A stretch of DNA of 64,000 nt from NCBI GenBank assembly GCA_029959365.1, contig JASCOA010000005.1:1-64000 (forward strand). Reading direction: 5' to 3'. This DNA comes from Microbacteriaceae bacterium PS02343. GTDB lineage: Bacteria > Actinomycetota > Actinomycetes > Actinomycetales > Microbacteriaceae. The position numbers and the translations under genes were made by a program. This document shows positions 52,013-64,000 of the stretch, one piece after another; the first letter of the stretch is position 1; the number at the start of each line of letters is the position of its first letter. Below the pieces are notes generated by a model that was given only the letters and a program-made list of their open reading frames with translations, was not told where the DNA came from and searched no databases.

Positions 52013-53992
52013 TCAGGCCGCGACGACCTCGGGCTGCGCGGCAGCGACCGGCGCGCTGCGGCGGGCGAAGGCCTTGAGCAGGATGACCAGACCGGCCGAG
52101 ATGACGGCGCCGACGACGACCGAGAGCACGAACAGCGGGAAGTTGTTCATCGCGAAGAACACGAAGACGCCGCCGTGCGGAGCCTGCGACGTGACCCCGA
52201 AGCCCATGAGCATCGCGCCGGTGACGGCCGAGCCGACGATCGCGGCCGGGATGACGCGGAACACGTCGGCGACCGCGAACGGGATCGCGCCCTCGGAGAT
52301 GAACGCCGCGCCGAGCAGCCATGCGGCCTTGCCGTTCTCGCGCTCCACACCGGTGAACAGGCGCGGCGCGACGGTGCTGGCGATGGCCATCGCGAGCGGA
52401 GCGACCATGCCGGCGCCCATCACGGCGGCCATGATGACCCACGGCGCCTGGTTGTCGATGGACCCGGCACCGAGACCGGCCACGGCGAAGGAGTACGCCA
52501 CCTTGTTGACGGGGCCGCCGAGGTCGAACGCCATCATCGTGCCGAGGATGAGGCCGAGCAGGATCGCGCCGGTGCCGCTGAGGCCCGAGAGGAAGCCGTT
52601 GAGCAGGTTCGTGAGGCCGGCGATGGGACCGCCGAGCACCAGGAGCAGCAGGCCGGAGGCCACGATCGAGCCGAGCAGCGGGATGATGACCACCGGCATG
52701 AGACCGCGCAGCCAGCGCGGAACGTCGAGCTTGCCGAGCGCCCAGGCCGCGCCACCGGCGAGCAGTCCGCCGACGATGCCGCCGAGGAAGCCGGCGCCCA
52801 TGGTCGCGGCGATCGCACCCGCCACGAAGCCGGGCGCGATGCCCGGGCGGTCCGCCATCGCGTAGGCGATGTAGCCGGCCAGTGCCGAGACGAGGAAGCC
52901 CATCGAGGCCCCGCCGATCGTGAACGCGACGGCGCCGAGGTAGTCGCCGAGGCCTTCCGGCGGCAGGTTCCAGAGCGAGTAGCCGAGCACGATGTCGACG
53001 TTGTCGTCGGTCACCGTGAAGCCGGCGAGCAGGAAGCCGAGCGCGATGAGCAGTCCGCCGCCCGCGACGAACGGGATCATGTAGCTCACGCCGGTGAGCA
53101 GCCAGCGCTTGACCGCGGCGCCCGGGCGCTCCTTCTGCGCGGGAGCGGATGCGGCAGCGCCCGCCGAGCCCGCCACGCGCGCCGCGTTCGGGTCGGTCGA
53201 GGCCTCCAGGGCCTGGCGGATGAGGCCGTCCGGGTCGTCGACGCCCCGCTTGACCGGGGCCTGCACGACGGGCTTGCCGGCGAAACGGCCGCGGTCGCGC
53301 ACGTCGACGTCGACCGCGAAGACCACGGCCTCGGCGGCGGCGATGAGCGCGGGATCGAGGGGCTTGGTGCCCGAGGAGCCCTGCGTCTCGATGTGCACCT
53401 CGACGCCCGCGCGCTCGCCCGCGGCGACCAGCGCATCCGCCGCCATGTAGGTGTGCGCGATGCCGGTCGGGCAGGCGGTGACGCCCACGATGACGCGGCG
53501 GCCGGTCGGCGCGGCGGCAGCGGGCGCCTCGGCCGGAGTCTCGGGCGCGAGCGCCTCGTCGACGAGCGCCACGACGGCCTCGGGGGTCGCGGCCGAGCGC
53601 AGGCGCTCGACGTACTCGGGGTTCACGAGCGAGCGGGCGAGGCTCGACAGCAGCGCGAGGTGCGCCTGGTCGGCGCCGGCCGGCGCGGCGATGAGGAAGA
53701 CGAGGTCGGCCGGGCCGTCGGCGCTGCCGAAGTCCACGGGGTTCGACAGCCGCGCGAAGGCGAGGGTCGGCTCGCTGACCGACTCGGAGCGGCAGTGCGG
53801 GATCGCGAGGCCGCCCGGCACGCCGGTGTCGGTGAGCTGCTCGCGCTTCCAGGCGTCGGCGAAGAGCGACTCGGTCTCGGTCGCGCGACCGGCCGCGACG
53901 ACGCGGTCGGCGAGGGCGCGGATGACCGACTGGCGGTCGGCACCGAGATCGGCGTCGACGACGACCAGCGCGGGGGTGATGATGGCGGACAT
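52013..53992 (-). CDS. fruA: PTS fructose transporter, fused EIIA-EIIB-EIIC
   Basis: Membrane transporter of 659 residues that imports fructose and phosphorylates it to fructose-1-phosphate. Order: EIIA (about 1-150; phosphohistidine in GGLAIPHCRSESV), EIIB (about 170-265; VGVTACPTGIAHTYMAADAL with the phosphocysteine), an Ala-rich linker, and EIIC with about nine helices (285-640), including GGPVNKVAYSFA and FISEGAIPFAVAD. All three phosphorelay residues are intact. ATG at 53992 is five bases after the fruK stop. Last gene of fruR-fruK-fruA. Confidence 0.95.
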   Translation of the reverse strand: MSAIITPALVVVDADLGADRQSVIRALADRVVAAGRATETESLFADAWKREQLTDTGVPGGLAIPHCRSESVSEPTLAFARLSNPVDFGSADGPADLVFLIAAPAGADQAHLALLSSLARSLVNPEYVERLRSAATPEAVVALVDEALAPETPAEAPAAAAPTGRRVIVGVTACPTGIAHTYMAADALVAAGERAGVEVHIETQGSSGTKPLDPALIAAAEAVVFAVDVDVRDRGRFAGKPVVQAPVKRGVDDPDGLIRQALEASTDPNAARVAGSAGAAASAPAQKERPGAAVKRWLLTGVSYMIPFVAGGGLLIALGFLLAGFTVTDDNVDIVLGYSLWNLPPEGLGDYLGAVAFTIGGASMGFLVSALAGYIAYAMADRPGIAPGFVAGAIAATMGAGFLGGIVGGLLAGGAAWALGKLDVPRWLRGLMPVVIIPLLGSIVASGLLLLVLGGPIAGLTNLLNGFLSGLSGTGAILLGLILGTMMAFDLGGPVNKVAYSFAVAGLGAGSIDNQAPWVIMAAVMGAGMVAPLAMAIASTVAPRLFTGVERENGKAAWLLGAAFISEGAIPFAVADVFRVIPAAIVGSAVTGAMLMGFGVTSQAPHGGVFVFFAMNNFPLFVLSVVVGAVISAGLVILLKAFARRSAPVAAAQPEVVAA

Positions 53993-53997
53993 GGGCC

Positions 53998-54978
53998 TTA
54001 CCCTTCGGACGGCTCGGCGGCGGTGACCGGGAGCGGTGTTGTGGTGACGAGCGACGGATCGACCTGCTCGATCGTGGGGATCTCGGAGCCGGGCAGCGAC
54101 ACCGCTGCGGCTCCGTAGGCGACCGCCCAGGCGAGGCGGTCGGGTTCGGGGAGATCGCGCTCGGCGGCGATCAGGTAGCCGGAGAGGGCGCTGTCGCCCG
54201 CCCCGACGGTGGAGCGCACGGCGACCGGCGGATGCACGCCCCGCCAGCTGCCGGCGCGGGTCACGAGCACCGCGCCGCCGCCGCCGAGCGTGAGCAGCAC
54301 GGCGCCGAGGCCGGCGTGGTCGTCGAGCAGGCGGCGAGCGGCGAGCGCGGCGGCTGCGGGGTCGGCCTCGAGGGCGTCCCCCTCCGCAGCGTCGCCCAGC
54401 AGCTCGGCCAGCTCGTGGGCGTTGGGCTTGACCAGGTCGACCCGCGCATCCGCTCGCACGATCGCGGCCAGCGGAGCGCCCGCGGTGTCGACCGCGATGC
54501 GCACGCCGGGCCGGGCCGCGCGCAGCCGCGCGACGATCTGCGCGTAGAGGGAGGGGTCGCTGCCGGCGGGCAGCGAGCCGGCCAGCACGACCCAGTGGGC
54601 GCGCCGCTCGGCGAGCAGCGCGTCGATGAGCAGCTCCTCGACCGCGAGGTCGAGGCGCTCCCCCGCCGCGTTGAGCTTCGTCGTCGTGCCGCCCGGCTCG
54701 GTGAGCGTGAGGTTGATGCGCACCGGAGCGGATGAGGGCACCGCGTGCACCCGCATCGGCGCGCCCGCGAGCAGCTGCACGAAGGGGTCGTGCGGCGGGG
54801 CCGGCAGGATCGCGACGGCCTCGAGCCCCGCGCCGCCGACCGCACGGGCGACGTTGACGCCCTTGCCGCCGGCCTGGTCGCCGAGGCGGCGGTAGCCGCG
54901 CACGCCGCCGCGCTCGAGCTCGCCCTGGACCGCGAGCTCGCGGTCGATGGAGGGGTTGAGGGTGAGGGTGATGATCAT
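53998..54978 (-). CDS. fruK: 1-phosphofructokinase
   Basis: Ribokinase-family enzyme of 326 residues that converts fructose-1-phosphate to fructose-1,6-bisphosphate. It begins MIITLTLNPSIDREL and has the first PfkB signature GGKGVNVARAVGGAG and the second STVGAGDSALSGYL with the catalytic Asp. ATG overlaps the fruR stop (ATGA), and fruA follows at once, so the whole operon is coupled. Confidence 0.94.
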   Translation of the reverse strand: MIITLTLNPSIDRELAVQGELERGGVRGYRRLGDQAGGKGVNVARAVGGAGLEAVAILPAPPHDPFVQLLAGAPMRVHAVPSSAPVRINLTLTEPGGTTTKLNAAGERLDLAVEELLIDALLAERRAHWVVLAGSLPAGSDPSLYAQIVARLRAARPGVRIAVDTAGAPLAAIVRADARVDLVKPNAHELAELLGDAAEGDALEADPAAAALAARRLLDDHAGLGAVLLTLGGGGAVLVTRAGSWRGVHPPVAVRSTVGAGDSALSGYLIAAERDLPEPDRLAWAVAYGAAAVSLPGSEIPTIEQVDPSLVTTTPLPVTAAEPSEG

Positions 54979-56044: not shown

Positions 56045-57157
56045 TCAGCGCTGCGGCCAGCTCCACGGCGGGTGCTCGAGCGGCAGCATGCCCTCGATCG
56101 CGGTGTCGCCGACGCCGCTCAGCTCGACCCGGCGACCGTGCTCGCCGAGTCGGCGGGAGAGCTCGGCGCTGTGCGTGATGACGAGCACCTGGGTGCGCTC
56201 GCTCGCGCGCCGGATCAGGCCTGCGAGCGCCGGCACCAGGTCGACGTGCAGCGCCGCCTCGGGCTCGTTGAGCACCAGCAGCCGCGGCGGCCTCGGCGAG
56301 AGCAGTGCGGCGACGAGCAGCAGGTAGCGCAGCGTGCCGTCGCTGAGCTCGTGCGCCAGCAGCGGCCGGAGCAGGTCGCCCTGCAGCAGCCCCACCGTGA
56401 AGCGCCCCGGTTCGGTGCCGACCTCGAGCCGGGCGCCTGGGAAGGCCTCGGCGATCGCCGCGTCGAGCTCGCCGCCGGAGCCCTGGTGCCGGATCGTCGC
56501 CAGCACGCTCGGCAGATCGCCGCCGTCGTCGGCGAGCACGGGCGAGAACGTGCCGGTGTGCGGTCGGCGGGCCGGGGCATCCGCATCGGTGCGGAAGGTC
56601 TCGTGGAAGCGCCAGGCGCGGATCTGCTCGCGCAGCAGCACGATCTCCGGACTGAGGCGCGGGTCGGCCAGCTGGGCCAGGATGGAGTCGTTCTGATCGA
56701 GGGGCACGGCGACCGGCTCCCATCCGCTCTCCCCGCGCACCTCGGCGAAGGTGCCGCGGCGGCGCGCGAGCGACGTGGCGGGCCGCAGGATCTCGCCCGC
56801 CCAGACCGCCTCCGCCTTGACCACCGGGTCGGAGTGGAACGGCCCCATGCCGTTCGTGTGCAGCCCGAAGTCGACCGCGTAGGAGAAGTCGTCGTCGCTG
56901 AAGCCGAGCTTGAGCGCGACCGGCTCGACGGCGCTGCCGTGACGGCGCTTGCCGGCCCAGAGCACCGAGGCGAGCCCGCCCTCCGCGGCGAGCGCGGCGC
57001 CGGCCCGGTTGTGGGCGGTCTCGGCCAGCAGCCGCAGCGCCCGGTACAGGTTCGTCTTGCCCGAGCCGTTCGGACCGGTCACGACCGTGAGGGCGTCCAG
57101 GTCGAGCACCATCGAGCGGATGGAGCGGTAGTGCTCGACCGCGATGCGGCGGATCAT
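56045..57157 (-). CDS. AAA-family ATPase (SMC/RecF-like, OLD-related)
   Basis: Protein of 370 residues. It starts IRRIAVEHYRSIRSMVLDL, has Walker A VTGPNGSGKTNLYRAL (about 27-42), the signature LAHELSDGTLRYLLLVAALL and Walker B LLVLNEPEAALH, with the H-switch VITHSAELSRRL. There is no coiled coil or fused TOPRIM nuclease. Proteins of this class occur as stand-alone ATPases or in defence pairs; no partner gene is adjacent here, since both sides are occupied by tandem repeats. Function unknown. Confidence 0.8.
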   Translation of the reverse strand: MIRRIAVEHYRSIRSMVLDLDALTVVTGPNGSGKTNLYRALRLLAETAHNRAGAALAAEGGLASVLWAGKRRHGSAVEPVALKLGFSDDDFSYAVDFGLHTNGMGPFHSDPVVKAEAVWAGEILRPATSLARRRGTFAEVRGESGWEPVAVPLDQNDSILAQLADPRLSPEIVLLREQIRAWRFHETFRTDADAPARRPHTGTFSPVLADDGGDLPSVLATIRHQGSGGELDAAIAEAFPGARLEVGTEPGRFTVGLLQGDLLRPLLAHELSDGTLRYLLLVAALLSPRPPRLLVLNEPEAALHVDLVPALAGLIRRASERTQVLVITHSAELSRRLGEHGRRVELSGVGDTAIEGMLPLEHPPWSWPQR

Positions 57158-57339
57158 GCGGTTCCTCTCGGTCGGGCCGGGCGCGCGGTCGTGTCCGAGG
57201 TTAGCGAGCGCCCCCGACAGTCCGCCTCCCCGGGTGGCCGCCTCCCCGCGTGGCCGCCTCTCGACCCGGCCGCCCGGCCTCGGTCCGCCAGGGCGCCCGC
57301 GCCATCCACGACCCTTCCCGTCATCCCGCGACCGCGCCC

Positions 57340-57411
57340 GCTCCCGCTGCTCCCGCCGCTCCCGCCGCTCCCGCTGCTCCCGCTGCTCCCGCTGCTCCCG
57401 CTGCTCCCGCG
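57340..57411. repeat. 9-base tandem array, eight units
   Basis: Eight units of GCTCCCGCT follow each other, with GCTCCCGCC in units 2 and 3 and GCTCCCGCG in the last. The array lies between the ATPase start and the folD stop. Confidence 0.95.
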
Positions 57412-57467
57412 AGCGGCCAGTAGTCGCGGGTGTCCGCTTCTCGCACGCCCCACTACTGACCGTTCGC
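57409..57467. repeat. Imperfect inverted repeat downstream of folD
   Basis: GCGAGCGGCCAGTAGT (57409-57424) and ACTACTGACCGTTCGC (57452-57467) pair with two mismatches around a 27-base loop. It abuts the 9-base tandem array and may end the glyA-folD transcript or be a dispersed element. Confidence 0.65.
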
Positions 57468-57532: not shown

Positions 57533-58411
57533 TCAGGCCAGGCGCGAGGCCGTGTCCACGACGTTCTTGAGCAGCAGCGCGCGGGTCATCGGGCCCACGC
57601 CGCCGGGGTTCGGCGAGATCCAGCTCGCGACCTCGGCGACGGCGGGGTCGACGTCGCCGGCGATGCGCGACTTGCCCGTCTCCGGGTCGGTCACGCGGCT
57701 GACGCCCACATCGAGCACGATCGCGCCCGGCTTGACGTTCTCCGGCGTCACGAGCGAGGGCACGCCCGCGGCCGCGACGATCACGTCGGCGCGGCGCAGG
57801 TGCGCGTCGAGGTCGACGGTGCCCGTGTGGGTGAGCGTGACGGTCGCGTTGAACTCCTTGCGGGTCAGCAGCGAGCCGATGGCGCGGCCGACGGTGACGC
57901 CGCGGCCCACGACCACCACGTCCTTGCCCTGCCACGAGATGCCGTGCCGCTCGACGAGCTCGATCACGCCGCGCGGGGTGCACGGCAGCGGGGTGTCGAT
58001 CGGCTGGTTCACGCGCAGCACCAGGCGCCCGAGGTTGGTCGGGTGCAGGCCGTCGGCGTCCTTCTCCGGCGCGATGCGCTCGAGCACCGCGTCGGTGTCG
58101 ATGTGCTTCGGCAGCGGCAGCTGCACGATGTAGCCGGTGCAGGCCGGGTCGGCGTTGAGCTCGTCGATCACGGCGAAGAGCTCGTCCTGGCCGATGTCCT
58201 CCGGCAGGTCGCGGCGGATGGACTCGATGCCCACCTCCGCGCAGTCCTTGTGCTTGCCGGCGACGTACCACTGCGAACCGGGGTCCGAGCCGACGAGCAC
58301 CGTGCCGAGGCCCGGCACGATGCCGCGCTCGCGCAGCTCGGCCACCCGCACGGTCAGCTCGGCCTTGATGGCCTTCGCCGTGGCGGTGCCGTCGAGGATC
58401 CGCGCCGTCAT
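57533..58411 (-). CDS. folD: Bifunctional methylenetetrahydrofolate dehydrogenase/cyclohydrolase
   Basis: Enzyme of 292 residues that converts 5,10-methylene- to 10-formyl-tetrahydrofolate through the methenyl form. Characteristic blocks: [18 protein letters not shown] with the catalytic Lys nearby, [39 protein letters not shown] for NADP, and [14 protein letters not shown]. Shares one base with the glyA stop (TGATG), so the two folate genes are co-translated. Confidence 0.95.
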
Positions 58412-59712
58412 CAGGCGGCGTGCCCGGACGGGTTCAGGCCCGCGTAGAGCGGGAACGCGTCGGCGAGGGTCGCGACGCGGGCGCGCAGGGCCGGCAGGTC
58501 GGCGCCGGGCTGCAGCGCGAGCGCGATGATGTCGGCGACCTCGGTGAACTCGACGTCGCCGAAGCCGCGGGTCGCGAGCGCGGGCGTGCCGATGCGCAGG
58601 CCGGAGGTGACCATCGGGGGGCGCGGGTCGTTCGGCACCGAGTTCTTGTTCACGGTGATGCCGACCTCGTGCAGCACGTTCTCGGCGTCCTGACCGGTCA
58701 GCTCCGAGTCGCGCAGGTCGACGAGCACGAGGTGCACGTCGGTGCCGCCCGAGCGCACCGTGATCTTGGCGTCGGCGACGTCCTGCTGCGCGAGGCGCTC
58801 GGCGAGGATCGAGGCGCCGCGCAGGGTGCGCTCCTGGCGCTCCTTGAACTCGGGGCTCGCGGCGATCTTGAACGCGGTCGCCTTGGCAGCGATCACGTGC
58901 ATGAGCGGGCCGCCCTGCTGGCCGGGGAAGACGGCCGAGTTGATCTTCTTCGCCAGGTCGGCGTCGTTGGTGAGGATGAAGCCGGAGCGCGGGCCGCCGA
59001 TGGTCTTGTGCACCGTCGAGGAGACGACGTGCGCGTGCGGGATCGGGCTCGGGTGCACGCCCGCGGCGACGAGGCCCGCGAAGTGGGCCATGTCGACCCA
59101 GAGCAGCGCGCCGACCTCGTCGGCGATCGCGCGGAACGCGGCGAAGTCGAGCTGGCGCGGGTAGGCCGACCAGCCGGCGATGATCACCTTGGGCTGGTGC
59201 TCGATGGCGAGGCGGCGCACCTCGTCCATGTCCACGATCGAGGTCTCGGCGTCGACGCCGTAGGCGACGATGTCGTAGAGGCGGCCCGAGAAGTTGATCT
59301 TCATGCCGTGCGTGAGGTGGCCGCCGTGGTCGAGCGAGAGGCCGAGCAGCGTGTCGCCGGGGCGGGCGATCGCGTGCAGCACGGCCGCGTTGGCGCTGGC
59401 GCCCGAGTGCGGCTGCACGTTGGCGAACTCGGCGCCGAACAGGCTCTTGGCCCGCTCGATGGCCAGCTCCTCGGCCACGTCGACGACCTCGCAGCCGCCG
59501 TAGTAGCGGCGGCCCGGGTAGCCCTCGGCGTACTTGTTGGTGAGCACGGAGCCCTGGCTCTCGAGCACGGCGCGCGGCACGAAGTTCTCGCTCGCGATCA
59601 TCTCGAGGAAGCTCTGCTGGCGCTCGAGCTCGGCCTGCAGCACGGCGGCGATCTCGGGGTCGACCTCGGCGAGGGGCGCGGTGAACGATGCGGGCTGGGG
59701 GGACGTGGACAC
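58411..59712 (-). CDS. glyA: Serine hydroxymethyltransferase
   Basis: PLP enzyme of 433 residues that makes glycine and methylene-THF from serine. Recognised by [48 protein letters not shown] and the PLP-binding lysine in [17 protein letters not shown] at 59712 was chosen because GAAGGAG lies eight bases upstream and the protein then starts like its homologues; an ATG at 59736 adds eight residues. A ZTP riboswitch-like element lies in its leader. Confidence 0.95.
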
Positions 59713-59769
59713 GGTGTCTCCTTCGGGGGTGAACATCGGCTCGTCGGGCGCGTGGGATCGCGGTTCCGA

Positions 59770-59848
59770 CGGGGGCCCAGGCGTGCGGTCCCTGCCGAGT
59801 TCATCGCTCCCCGATGGTTGCCCATCTGAACGCCAGTCGCGATGAGCC
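59770..59848 (-). ncRNA. Probable ZTP (pfl-type) riboswitch upstream of glyA
   Basis: On the minus strand the leader contains CGCGACTGGCG (59841-59831), a hairpin GATGGGCAACCATC, then GGGGAGCGATGA, and after a short linker CCGCACGCCTGGGCC (to about 59772). These are the conserved blocks of the pfl/ZTP motif in their usual order. ZTP riboswitches sense the purine intermediate ZMP/ZTP, which rises when 10-formyl-THF is low, and turn on glyA, folD and purine genes. A TAGCAT box at 59855-59850 would start the RNA at the first conserved block. Confidence 0.78.
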
Positions 59849-59920
59849 GATGCTACACGCAGCGGGCGAGCGGAACGAGAGCGGGCGACCGTCACCAGAG
59901 CGGATGCGCCTCTCGCGCGG

Positions 59921-60382
59921 TCAGGAGATGCGGTCGGCCTCGTCCTCGGCGGCGCGCTGCGCGGCCCGGTCGGCGCCCGCATCCGCCTCGGCCTCAGCAC
60001 CGCCGCGGTCGGAGGAGTCGCGCTCGCGGGCCTCGATCGCCTCGATCCGCTCGGCCAGCTCGTCGACCATCAGCTGGTCCTTCGGGAAGGCCTTGGCCCG
60101 GTACGCCGCACGTCCCACCATGTGAGCGGCGACCGGCGAGGTGAGCACCTGGAAGCCGACGACGAGCACGAGGCTGGTGATGACCGCCGGGGTCGGGTGC
60201 TGCAGGCCGACGGCGATGAGGATCGAGAAGAGGCCGAGGTTCTGCGGCTTCGTGGCGGCGTGCATGCGCGAGAGCACGTCGGGGAAGCGCAGGATGCCCA
60301 CGCCGGCGGCCACGGCGAGCAGGCCGCCGAGCAGGATGAGGGCCAGCGAGATCACGTCGCGCACGTTGTCGATCGTCTCCAT
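59921..60382 (-). CDS. mnhG: Mrp-type Na+/H+ antiporter subunit G
   Basis: Protein of 153 residues with three membrane helices and the MnhG/MrpG pattern [20 protein letters not shown] followed by [13 protein letters not shown] long charged C-terminal tail (about 60 residues, ending DEADRIS) goes beyond the usual length of about 110. Last gene of the mnhABCDEFG operon; ATG shares one base with the mnhF stop. Confidence 0.9.
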
Positions 60383-60654
60383 CAGCGATCCCCCTTGCCG
60401 CCGCTGGTCGCGATGAAGCGCGAGACGCTCACCGAGCCGAGCACGCTGAAGAGCACGAGCACGATGAGCACCGGCAGGGTCTCGGTGTGCGCGTTGACGA
60501 CCATCTCGACGCCGAGGCCGCACATGAGCGTGCCGAGCAGCATGTCGGTGGCGACGACGCGGTCGAGCACGGTCGGGCCCTTGATGATGCGCCAGACGGC
60601 GCAGGCGGCGGCGATGCTGAGCAGCACCCCGGCGATGAGGATCACGATGTCCAT
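60382..60654 (-). CDS. mnhF: Mrp-type Na+/H+ antiporter subunit F
   Basis: Protein of 90 residues with three membrane helices and the conserved VWRIIKGPTVLDRVVATDML segment. Part of the seven-subunit cation/proton antiporter complex that exports Na+ and supports pH homeostasis. Overlaps both neighbours by one base. Confidence 0.92.
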   Translation of the reverse strand: MDIVILIAGVLLSIAAACAVWRIIKGPTVLDRVVATDMLLGTLMCGLGVEMVVNAHTETLPVLIVLVLFSVLGSVSVSRFIATSGGKGDR

Positions 60655-61331
60655 CAGGCGTCCTTCCCGGCGCCGCGGCCGGAGCCGGCGGCGCGGCGAG
60701 CCGCCCGCTCGGCGCGCACGATGCGCACCTCCTCGGGCGATCCGAGCGCGAGCACGATGGCCTCCTCGGTGTCGAGCACGCCCCGTCGCACCTTCTCGAG
60801 GGCCTCGGGCGTGGCGGTGTTGAGCGTGTGCAGGTAGAGCCGGCCCTCCTCGCGGTCGGCCTCGACGATGATCGAGCCGGGGATGAGCGAGACCGCCTGG
60901 CCCGTCCACGTGAGGATGAGGTCGCTGGTGGTGTGCAGCGGCACCGCGATGATCGCGTTGCGCGGCGTGGACCGCCAGTCGAACGCCTGCCAGGCGACCT
61001 GCAGCGAGGCGCCGAACATCTGCGCGGCCTGGCGGACGAGGAACCAGACGAGCCGCGGCAGGTTCACCCGGCCGCCGAGCTCGACGGCCGGCAGGTGGAA
61101 GACGCGCACGACGAGCACGGCGAGCACGATGCCGCCGATGATGCTGAGCCAGCTGATCGTGTCCCAGAGCAGCACCCAGACGACGATGAGCAGCAGGAGC
61201 AGCGGCAGCTGGCGCCAGACGTTGGCGCGCTTGCCGCGGCGCTGCGCGCCGGAGTCCTTCGGCGCGTGCTGCGGCGCGGCGCCGGCGTGGGCCTCGGCGC
61301 TGCGCGCGGAGACGTCGTGACCGTCGGTCAT
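60654..61331 (-). CDS. mnhE: Mrp-type Na+/H+ antiporter subunit E
   Basis: Protein of 225 residues: a charged N-terminal extension of about 38 residues, two membrane helices (about 42-80), then a soluble part with MnhE features such as SLIPGSIIVEADREEGRLYL and HTLNTATPEALEKV. A basic C-terminal tail follows. ATG at 61331 overlaps mnhD (ATGA). Confidence 0.9.
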   Translation of the reverse strand: MTDGHDVSARSAEAHAGAAPQHAPKDSGAQRRGKRANVWRQLPLLLLLIVVWVLLWDTISWLSIIGGIVLAVLVVRVFHLPAVELGGRVNLPRLVWFLVRQAAQMFGASLQVAWQAFDWRSTPRNAIIAVPLHTTSDLILTWTGQAVSLIPGSIIVEADREEGRLYLHTLNTATPEALEKVRRGVLDTEEAIVLALGSPEEVRIVRAERAARRAAGSGRGAGKDA

Positions 61332-62890
61332 CGTGCACCTCCCAGCACGGCGTCGATGTAGGTGGAGGGGTCCATCACGTTGCGGGCCGCCTCTGCCGAG
61401 ATGTCGAGCAGCGGACCGGCGAGCACGGTGAGGGCGACCGAGAGCACGACCATCACCGCGGTGGCCGCGATCATGATGCGCGGGGTGGTGCGCACGCTCG
61501 TGCCGCCGGAGTCGTCCGGGTCCTCGGCGAGAGCGCTGACCAGCCGCGACTGGTGGCCGCTCTCCATCTCCTCGCGCGAGCGCCAGAACGCGAGGTTCCA
61601 GACCCGCACCAGGGCGTAGAGGGTGAGCAGGCTCGTGGCCGCGCCGGCCGCGATCGTGACGTAGGCGAGCGGCGTGCCGAGGTCGACGCCCGCGGCGAAG
61701 AGGCCGACCTTGCCGAGGAAGCCCGAGAAGGGCGGGATGCCGCCGAGGTTGAGCGCCGGGATGAAGAAGAGCAGGGCGAGCACCGGGAACGCCTTGAGCA
61801 GTCCGGCGAGGCGCGTGATCGAGGTGGCCCCGCCCATCCGCTCGATCAGCCCGACCACCAGGAAGAGCGTGGTCTGCACGGTGATGTGGTGCACGACGTA
61901 GTAGATCGTGGCCGTCATGGCCTGCTCGGTGCCGATGGCGATGCCGAAGATCATGTAGCCGATGTGGCTGACCAGCGTGAACGAGAGCAGCCGCTTGATG
62001 TCGGCCTGCGCGACGGCGCCCGCGATGCCCACGAGCAGCGTCAGCACCGCCAGCACCATCAGGAAGTCCTCGAGCACGTCGCCCGGGAACAGCACCGTCT
62101 CGGTGCGGATGATCGCGTAGACGCCCACCTTGGTGAGCAGACCGGCGAACACCGCGGTGACCGGCGCGGGCGCGGTCGGGTACGAGTCGGGCAGCCAGAA
62201 CGACACCGGGAACACCGCCGCCTTGATGCCGAAGGCGATGAGCAGCATGAGGTGCAGCAGCAGCTGCACGTCGTCGGGCAGGTCGGCGACCCGCTCGGCG
62301 ATGTGCGCGATCGTGACGGTGCCGGTGGCGCCGTAGACGAGCGCGATGGCGGCGAGGAAGAAGACCGAGCTGACCAGGCTGACGATGATGTACGTGACGC
62401 CGGCGCGGATGCGCGCGCCCGTGCCGCCGAGCGTCAGCAGCACGTAGCTGGCCGCCAGCAGCACCTCGAAGCCGACGAACATGTTGAACAGGTCGCCCGC
62501 GACGAAGGCGTTGAAGAGGCCAGTCGCGAGGATCATGTAGGTCGGGTGGAAGATCGACACGGGGGTGTCGCGGTGCTCGTCGGCGAGGCCCTGGCCCACG
62601 GCGAAGATGAGCACGCCGAGCAGCACGACCGCCGAGACGAGCACCATGAGCGCCGAGAGGCGGTCGGCGACCAGCACGATGCCGATGGGGGTGTCCCAGC
62701 CGCCGACCCGCACGACGGCGGTGCCCTCCTCGCCCACGCGGGCGAGGAGCACGCCGGCGATGACGGCGACGGCCGTGAGCACGACGGTGCTGACGAGCAC
62801 CTGCAGCTTGGTGTTGCGGCCGAGCACGAGGGTCAGTGCGGCGCCGAGCAGCGGCAGGCCGACGACCAGGGGCACGAGGTTGGCGCTCAT
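61328..62890 (-). CDS. mnhD: Mrp-type Na+/H+ antiporter subunit D
   Basis: Membrane protein of 520 residues with about fourteen helices, homologous to proton-pumping subunits of complex I. The core shows FNMFVGFEVLLAASYVLLTL with the key Glu, AVFAGLLTKVGVYAIIR with the key Lys, and KRLLSFTLVSHIGYM. It is one of the two proton-translocating subunits. Overlaps mnhC and mnhE by four bases each. Confidence 0.95.
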   Translation of the reverse strand: MSANLVPLVVGLPLLGAALTLVLGRNTKLQVLVSTVVLTAVAVIAGVLLARVGEEGTAVVRVGGWDTPIGIVLVADRLSALMVLVSAVVLLGVLIFAVGQGLADEHRDTPVSIFHPTYMILATGLFNAFVAGDLFNMFVGFEVLLAASYVLLTLGGTGARIRAGVTYIIVSLVSSVFFLAAIALVYGATGTVTIAHIAERVADLPDDVQLLLHLMLLIAFGIKAAVFPVSFWLPDSYPTAPAPVTAVFAGLLTKVGVYAIIRTETVLFPGDVLEDFLMVLAVLTLLVGIAGAVAQADIKRLLSFTLVSHIGYMIFGIAIGTEQAMTATIYYVVHHITVQTTLFLVVGLIERMGGATSITRLAGLLKAFPVLALLFFIPALNLGGIPPFSGFLGKVGLFAAGVDLGTPLAYVTIAAGAATSLLTLYALVRVWNLAFWRSREEMESGHQSRLVSALAEDPDDSGGTSVRTTPRIMIAATAVMVVLSVALTVLAGPLLDISAEAARNVMDPSTYIDAVLGGAR

Positions 62891-63417
62891 CGCTGCACCC
62901 CTCTCTGGTCGATGTCGGACGGCCCGTCGGCGCGCGCGCCGGGGGCCTCGTCGGTGTCGTCCCGCTCGCCCTCCGCCTGCTCCTCCTGGATGGCGTCGGC
63001 GTCGGCCGTGGTCTCCTCGAAGACGATGTCGGCGTCCTCGACCTGCTCGGGCAGGTCGTCGCCGTCGTCGACGACGTCGCCCTCATCCGGTTGCGCGCCC
63101 TTCGCCTCGGTCCGGGCGAGCCACCAGGCGCGGTAGATGAGCGCGAGCAGGAAGGCGGTGATGCCCATGTTGATGACGATGGCGGTGAGGATGAGCGCCT
63201 GCGGCAGCGGGTCGCTCATGTCCTCGGCGCTGCGGCCGTCCTGCCAGAACGCGGCGGCTCCGGCGCGGCCGGACATGATCAGCAGCAGGATGTTCGTCGC
63301 GTTGCCGACCAGCACGAAGCCGATGACGATGCGGGTGATGCTGCGCTCGAGCATCACGTAGACGCCGGCGGCGTACATGACGGCCATGAGCAGCACGAGC
63401 ACGAGGGAGGCGTTCAT
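62887..63417 (-). CDS. mnhC: Mrp-type Na+/H+ antiporter subunit C with acidic tail
   Basis: Protein of 176 residues. The first 110 form the NuoK-like MnhC domain with three helices (VMLERSITRIVIGFVLVGN, then PLPQALILTAIVINMGITAF). The last 65 residues are an unusually acidic tail (about 20 Asp/Glu) absent from most homologues. ATG overlaps mnhA as ATGA. The tail may interact with other subunits or is simply lineage-specific. Confidence 0.92.
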   Translation of the reverse strand: MNASLVLVLLMAVMYAAGVYVMLERSITRIVIGFVLVGNATNILLLIMSGRAGAAAFWQDGRSAEDMSDPLPQALILTAIVINMGITAFLLALIYRAWWLARTEAKGAQPDEGDVVDDGDDLPEQVEDADIVFEETTADADAIQEEQAEGERDDTDEAPGARADGPSDIDQRGVQR

Positions 63418-64000
63418 CGAGCACCTCCATCGGTCGCGACCTCGTCGGCCTCGGTGTCGGTCTCGAGACCGGTCGGGCGGGTCTCGCGCTGCAGGTCGGC
63501 CGCGATCTCGGCATGCCGGTCGACCTCGCCGCCGAGGCTGCGCAGCACGTCGAGCACGAGACCGACGACCACCAGGTAGACGCCGATGTCGAAGAACATC
63601 GAGGTGGTCAGCGAGACGTAGCCCAGCACGGGCAGCTCGGCGGCCCAGTAGGTGGACTCGAGCGCCTCCTGGCCGAAGAGCAGCGGCACGAGGGCGGTGC
63701 CGACGGCGAGGATGAGACCGAGGCCCAGCACCTTGCCCGCGTCGACGGGCAGCGCCTCGCCGAGCTCGTAGCGCCCGCCCGCGAGGTAGCGCGCCACGAG
63801 CGCCAGGCCCGCGAGCAGGCCGCCGGCGAAGCCGCCGCCCGGGTCGTTGTGCCCGGCGAGCAGCAGGTAGAGCGAGACGAGGATCGCGGGGTGGAACAGC
63901 AGCCGCACGACGACCTCGACCATGATCGAGCGGTTCTCGGCGGAGAGCGTACGACCGGCGACGAGCCAGGTCTGCTGGGTGCCGCCCTCGGTGCGGCTCG
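63414..64000 (-). CDS. mnhA: Mrp-type Na+/H+ antiporter subunit A/B, C-terminal part
   Basis: The reading frame is open to the window edge and the gene continues beyond it. The visible 195 residues include SRTEGGTQQTWLVAGRTLSA and an MnhB-type domain with LLLAGHNDPGGGFAGGLLAG and SMFFDIGVYLVVVGLVLDVL, so MnhB appears fused to the C-terminus of MnhA as in many actinobacteria. An internal ATG at 63923 is unlikely to be the start because the frame upstream of it is clearly coding. A soluble tail follows the last helix. Confidence 0.9.
   Translation of the reverse strand, partial: SRTEGGTQQTWLVAGRTLSAENRSIMVEVVVRLLFHPAILVSLYLLLAGHNDPGGGFAGGLLAGLALVARYLAGGRYELGEALPVDAGKVLGLGLILAVGTALVPLLFGQEALESTYWAAELPVLGYVSLTTSMFFDIGVYLVVVGLVLDVLRSLGGEVDRHAEIAADLQRETRPTGLETDTEADEVATDGGAR

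Follow-up and report, generated by a model that had tools for sequence, protein, structure and literature searches.

The pfl motif was first described in 2010, when glyA and folD were among the 5 gene types named for it (PMC2864571), and later work identified ZMP and ZTP as the metabolites that this class senses (reviewed in PMC7266159). The ZTP riboswitches that have been studied in detail work through terminators; in the pfl switch of C. beijerinckii, an invader strand displaces helix P3 and forms an intrinsic terminator (PMC10085676). A survey of fluoride riboswitches reports nearly no transcriptional variants in Actinomycetota (PMC13273304). Here, we analyzed a 64,000-nucleotide stretch of Microbacteriaceae bacterium PS02343 (contig JASCOA010000005.1, positions 1 to 64,000; hereafter, the window), in which the leader of a glyA-folD pair carries a member of this class.

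A cmscan search of the whole window against all 4,227 families of Rfam 15 revealed a match to RF01750 (ZMP-ZTP) on the minus strand (59850..59768), which spans model positions 1–86 of 86 and scores 56.7 bits (gathering threshold 39; E = 1.5e-6). Besides this element, the scan of the window matched only a tRNA, and a genome search identified no second copy of the ZTP riboswitch. The aptamer does not differ from the RF01750 class, being matched over its full length with all blocks, helices P1, P2 and P3, and the pseudoknot; its leader begins at P1 and its targets, glyA and folD, are those of the first description (PMC2864571). The conserved blocks follow one another in the order ACUGGCG (59837–59831), P2 hairpin GAUGGGCAACCAUC, GGGGAGCG, and CCGCACGCCUGGGC. 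The blocks by which RF01750 membership is recognized, namely, ACUGGCG, GGGGAGCG, and CGCCUGGGC, are all present in the sequence and the Rfam alignment, as is the GGCG/CGCC pseudoknot (minus-strand segments 59831..59834 and 59780..59783), and the alignment indicates that the pocket-forming blocks are intact. It also pairs the P1 5′ strand AUCGC (59839..59843) with the 3′ strand GCGAU (59803..59807), and defines P3 as a hairpin (59773..59791) in which 59791–59787 pair with 59777–59773. The first-pass annotation had proposed a ZTP riboswitch before glyA-folD with the pfl blocks in order, and both points are borne out by the pfl covariance model on the minus strand, where the score did not fall below the gathering cutoff, the outcome named there as refuting; its span, 59770–59855, agrees with 59768..59850 save at the edges, where 59850–59855 correspond to the −10 box TAGCAT rather than to the aptamer.

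On the minus strand, the aptamer is followed by glyA and then folD. The former (58411..59712; NF000586, 590.7 bits, cutoff 335) encodes a 433-amino-acid serine hydroxymethyltransferase (SHMT) and starts with GTG at 59712, 5 bases downstream of the Shine-Dalgarno sequence GAAGGAG (59718..59724). The latter (57533..58411), which overlaps the glyA stop codon by 1 base, encodes a 292-amino-acid methylene-THF dehydrogenase/cyclohydrolase matching the Actinobacteria-type FolD model NF010789 (469.2 bits, cutoff 401); its named relatives come from Microbacteriaceae such as Leucobacter, Microcella, and Leifsonia. The sequence makes it nearly certain that the element is a ZTP riboswitch typical of its class and that glyA-folD, in whose 5′ leader it lies, is its target operon. 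The best explanation of the locus as a whole, to which we assign a probability of roughly 0.93, is a class-typical ZTP riboswitch in the glyA-folD leader, the ligand of which would raise expression. Both the RNA class and its gene context are known, and what is new is this copy.

The physiological role can be inferred from the class. A shortage of 10-formyl-THF would stall PurH, leading to a build-up of ZMP and ZTP; binding of either to the aptamer would increase the expression of GlyA and FolD, which would in turn produce 10-formyl-THF from serine and THF. Because fhs (formate-THF ligase) was not found in the genome, whereas purH is present, with a detectable AICAR transformylase domain, GlyA-FolD is probably the principal route to 10-formyl-THF in this organism, which fits the role in restoring this cofactor that had been attributed to the gene pair. 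The frames further downstream on the minus strand include a short Gly/Ser-rich repeat frame (SSGSSGSSG...; 57154–57453), probably not a gene, located between folD and an AAA-type ATPase (56045–57157). The latter has a RecF-like N-terminus and matches the defence ATPase MAD3 weakly, at a score below the cutoff. A fructose-type PTS IIABC protein is encoded at 52013–53998, also on the minus strand, with a frame resembling a DeoR-type regulator nearby.

The −10 box TAGCAT (minus strand, 59850..59855) was read in the sequence, and its spacing is conserved among relatives: in 123 of the 127 leaders which we extracted from related genomes and parsed, a TANNNT hexamer starts 17–20 bases before ACTGGCG, against a background of 0.0017 per position further upstream. 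With +1 set 7 bases after TAGCAT, transcription is predicted to start at approximately A59843, the outermost base of P1. Neither a consensus −35 element nor a sigma-70 consensus promoter containing one was found at the leader. Given the conservation of the −10 box at a fixed spacing, the conclusion that the aptamer begins at the transcription start throughout the family is well supported on sequence grounds, in line with the first-pass annotation, which had the motif starting at the predicted transcription start; in a limited literature search, we found no paper stating so. Directly upstream, the minus strand carries genes for a multisubunit Na+/H+ antiporter (59921–63923; the subunits scanned include G, F, D, C, and B-type). 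Another frame for a membrane protein lies among the subunit genes, and the gap after this cluster contains a −10 box belonging to the riboswitch itself.

As to how ligand binding might be converted into a change of expression, the complementarity of the individual aptamer parts to the downstream sequence was determined in 87 deduplicated glyA leaders and compared with dinucleotide shuffles. The C. beijerinckii pfl switch shares the aptamer class with the window copy, and both are presumed ON switches; however, neither the P3 invader nor the intrinsic terminator of the former (PMC10085676) was found in the window. The window leader contains no terminator-like site and no U tract, and across the 87 leaders the 3′ strand of P3 displays less complementarity to the downstream sequence than expected (mean z +0.73; significant in 0/87), the P3 duplex of the window itself having a z of +0.74. 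A terminator-type platform with a P3 invader was therefore rejected: the downstream complementarity to P3, on which an invader-type terminator depends, is in deficit.

The strongest rival to the preferred reading retains the same aptamer but assigns it a transcriptional output, in which the ligand prevents either Rho-dependent termination or termination at an unusual, U-poor terminator at 59771–59742. Apart from the precedent of the well-studied ZTP switches, which act by terminators (PMC10085676), this possibility draws on the segment that separates P3 from the Shine-Dalgarno sequence, the folding of which is better than that of its shuffles throughout the family (mean z −0.78 ± 0.12). In the window, this segment includes an expression-platform hairpin (59742..59771, minus strand; −15.8 kcal/mol, z −2.6) with the outer stem CGUCGG/CCGACG and the inner stem CGCG/CGCG. 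No U tract follows the hairpin, though, and 5 T residues within 8 positions occur anywhere before the start codon in only 16 of the 87 leaders; together with the lack of P3 complementarity, this renders a transcriptional output unlikely.

Translational control is instead suggested by a modest excess of complementarity towards the ribosome-binding region, seen for J1/3 and the 3′ strand of P1 while terminator and P3 signals are missing, and a translational output of some kind appears somewhat favored on the basis of these sequence comparisons. In the leaders of relatives, the median distance between the aptamer and the start codon is 52 bases. When J1/3 plus the P1 3′ strand were compared with the 40 bases immediately preceding the start codon, the mean z values were −0.62 ± 0.14 and −0.59 ± 0.14 (± SEM), and the helix reached p ≤ 0.05 in only about 15–17% of leaders. 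The other parts of the aptamer yielded z values near or above zero, with neither the P2 hairpin nor the upstream DNA displaying excess complementarity to the sequence behind the aptamer in the 87 leaders and no family-wide signal being detected for the P1 5′ strand. In the window, complementarity between the P1 5′ flank and 59750–59738 had been noticed by eye, but this candidate was discarded, most of the flank lying upstream of the predicted transcription start. An earlier pairing test in which leaders were swapped between genomes (own −13.4, permuted −12.2 ± 0.24 kcal/mol) is not relied on here; since related genomes share composition, it was replaced by the dinucleotide shuffles of deduplicated leaders.

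In the minimum-energy fold of the window leader, the candidate switching strand in J1/3, UGAACUCGGC (59794..59803, minus strand), pairs with 59740–59730, that is, with the putative partner strand GCCGAUGUUCA (59730..59740), also considered in the duplex tests and located 5 bases upstream of the Shine-Dalgarno sequence. The duplex (−14.9 kcal/mol, p = 0.085) is not significant for the window copy by itself, and because it overlaps P1 by just 1 transcribed base, it may be compatible with the ligand-bound aptamer. Three leaders from the top of the ranked list illustrate the trend rather than prove it: CGACUGACAU pairs with AUGUCAGUCG directly before UAAGGAG in L043, ACAGACACGGA pairs with UCCGUGUCUGU directly before GAAGGAG in L080, and in L107 J1/3 pairs with the Shine-Dalgarno sequence itself. 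Simple sequestration of the Shine-Dalgarno sequence was unsupported by a crude folding model, in which its predicted accessibility averages 0.49 with the aptamer and 0.42 without it and thus does not rise upon removal of the aptamer. The specific J1/3 helix is a possible switch, with the odds somewhat against it. In such a switch, J1/3 and the P1 3′ strand could pair just upstream of the glyA Shine-Dalgarno sequence, or in some relatives include it, when the ligand is absent, whereas the bound ligand would keep P1, P3, and the pseudoknot assembled, leaving the ribosome-binding region free. The output mechanism at work here was not set out in the literature that our limited search found.

The preferred reading, a class-typical and probably functional ZTP riboswitch, is also supported by the conservation of the element among relatives. 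One comparison is with leader L019 of the same-genus genome G001, in which the aptamer, the spacing of the −10 box, the Shine-Dalgarno sequence, and glyA are as in the window. This leader keeps the outer stem of the expression-platform hairpin (z −3.7), but its platform is 17 bases longer in the middle and does not clearly retain the J1/3 partner. Across the 125 leaders scored, the pseudoknot GGCG/CGCC is invariant (125/125), although the pattern used to extract the leaders was anchored in part on these letters. The outermost P1 pair is GC in 97 leaders, GU in 11, AU in 9, and UA in 2, the window and its same-genus relative having AU where most leaders have GC; the next P1 pair is UA in 94, CG in 16, UG in 12, and AU in 2, and one P2 pair is AU in 79 and GC in 30. 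Judging from these counts, the P1 and P2 helices are kept through compensatory changes. That this copy has changed its ligand or is decaying while retaining the aptamer is very improbable: its 56.7 bits are not the maximum but lie mid-range in a family whose scores run from 39 to 65 bits, the conserved blocks and pseudoknot are all intact, and the core of L019 is identical from ACUGGCG to CGCCUGGG. A chance match between 2 genes has a negligible probability and, by sequence conservation and covariation, is already refuted, given the E-value from the whole-window scan, the retention of the motif in 177 of 200 Microbacteriaceae genomes, and the compensatory changes in P1 and P2, even though the folding energy of the whole leader is unremarkable (z −0.37, not better than its own shuffles) and such folding is common in GC-rich DNA.

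The motif is likewise present in 47 of 59 genomes in a wider sample of the family and order. Most of the 20 listed family genomes without it are small (0.9–1.7 Mb), which suggests loss of the riboswitch through genome reduction. As judged by N-terminal sequence, the gene downstream of nearly all 127 leaders is glyA; behind 7 leaders (L004, L015, L021, L025, L066, L083, and L114), the N-terminus read by eye is purH-like. The riboswitches preceding purH are second copies or, in some cases, single copies, with several of these genomes having one copy each before glyA and purH. In another leader, L094 (584 bases, G094:C4:161971-162554; L137 2272-2355, minus strand), the ZTP riboswitch stands directly before a major-facilitator-like gene, read by eye from the translation as a transporter and not as an enzyme of purine or folate metabolism; its 55-residue N-terminal piece has no Pfam match.

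Collectively, the window adds to a known riboswitch class one more copy, well supported and in the expected place, explaining the probable regulation of glyA-folD. We tentatively propose, while regarding it as rather doubtful, that ZTP riboswitches of Microbacteriaceae, including this copy, have P1 at +1 and a translational platform in which, in the ligand-free state, it is J1/3 and the P1 3′ strand, and not P3, that pair with the ribosome-binding region. If true, the J1/3-type platform would join a known aptamer to an expression platform of another kind. In high-GC Actinomycetota, the terminator platform known from well-studied switches does not apply, and the family-wide set of leaders would make the output testable by reporter.
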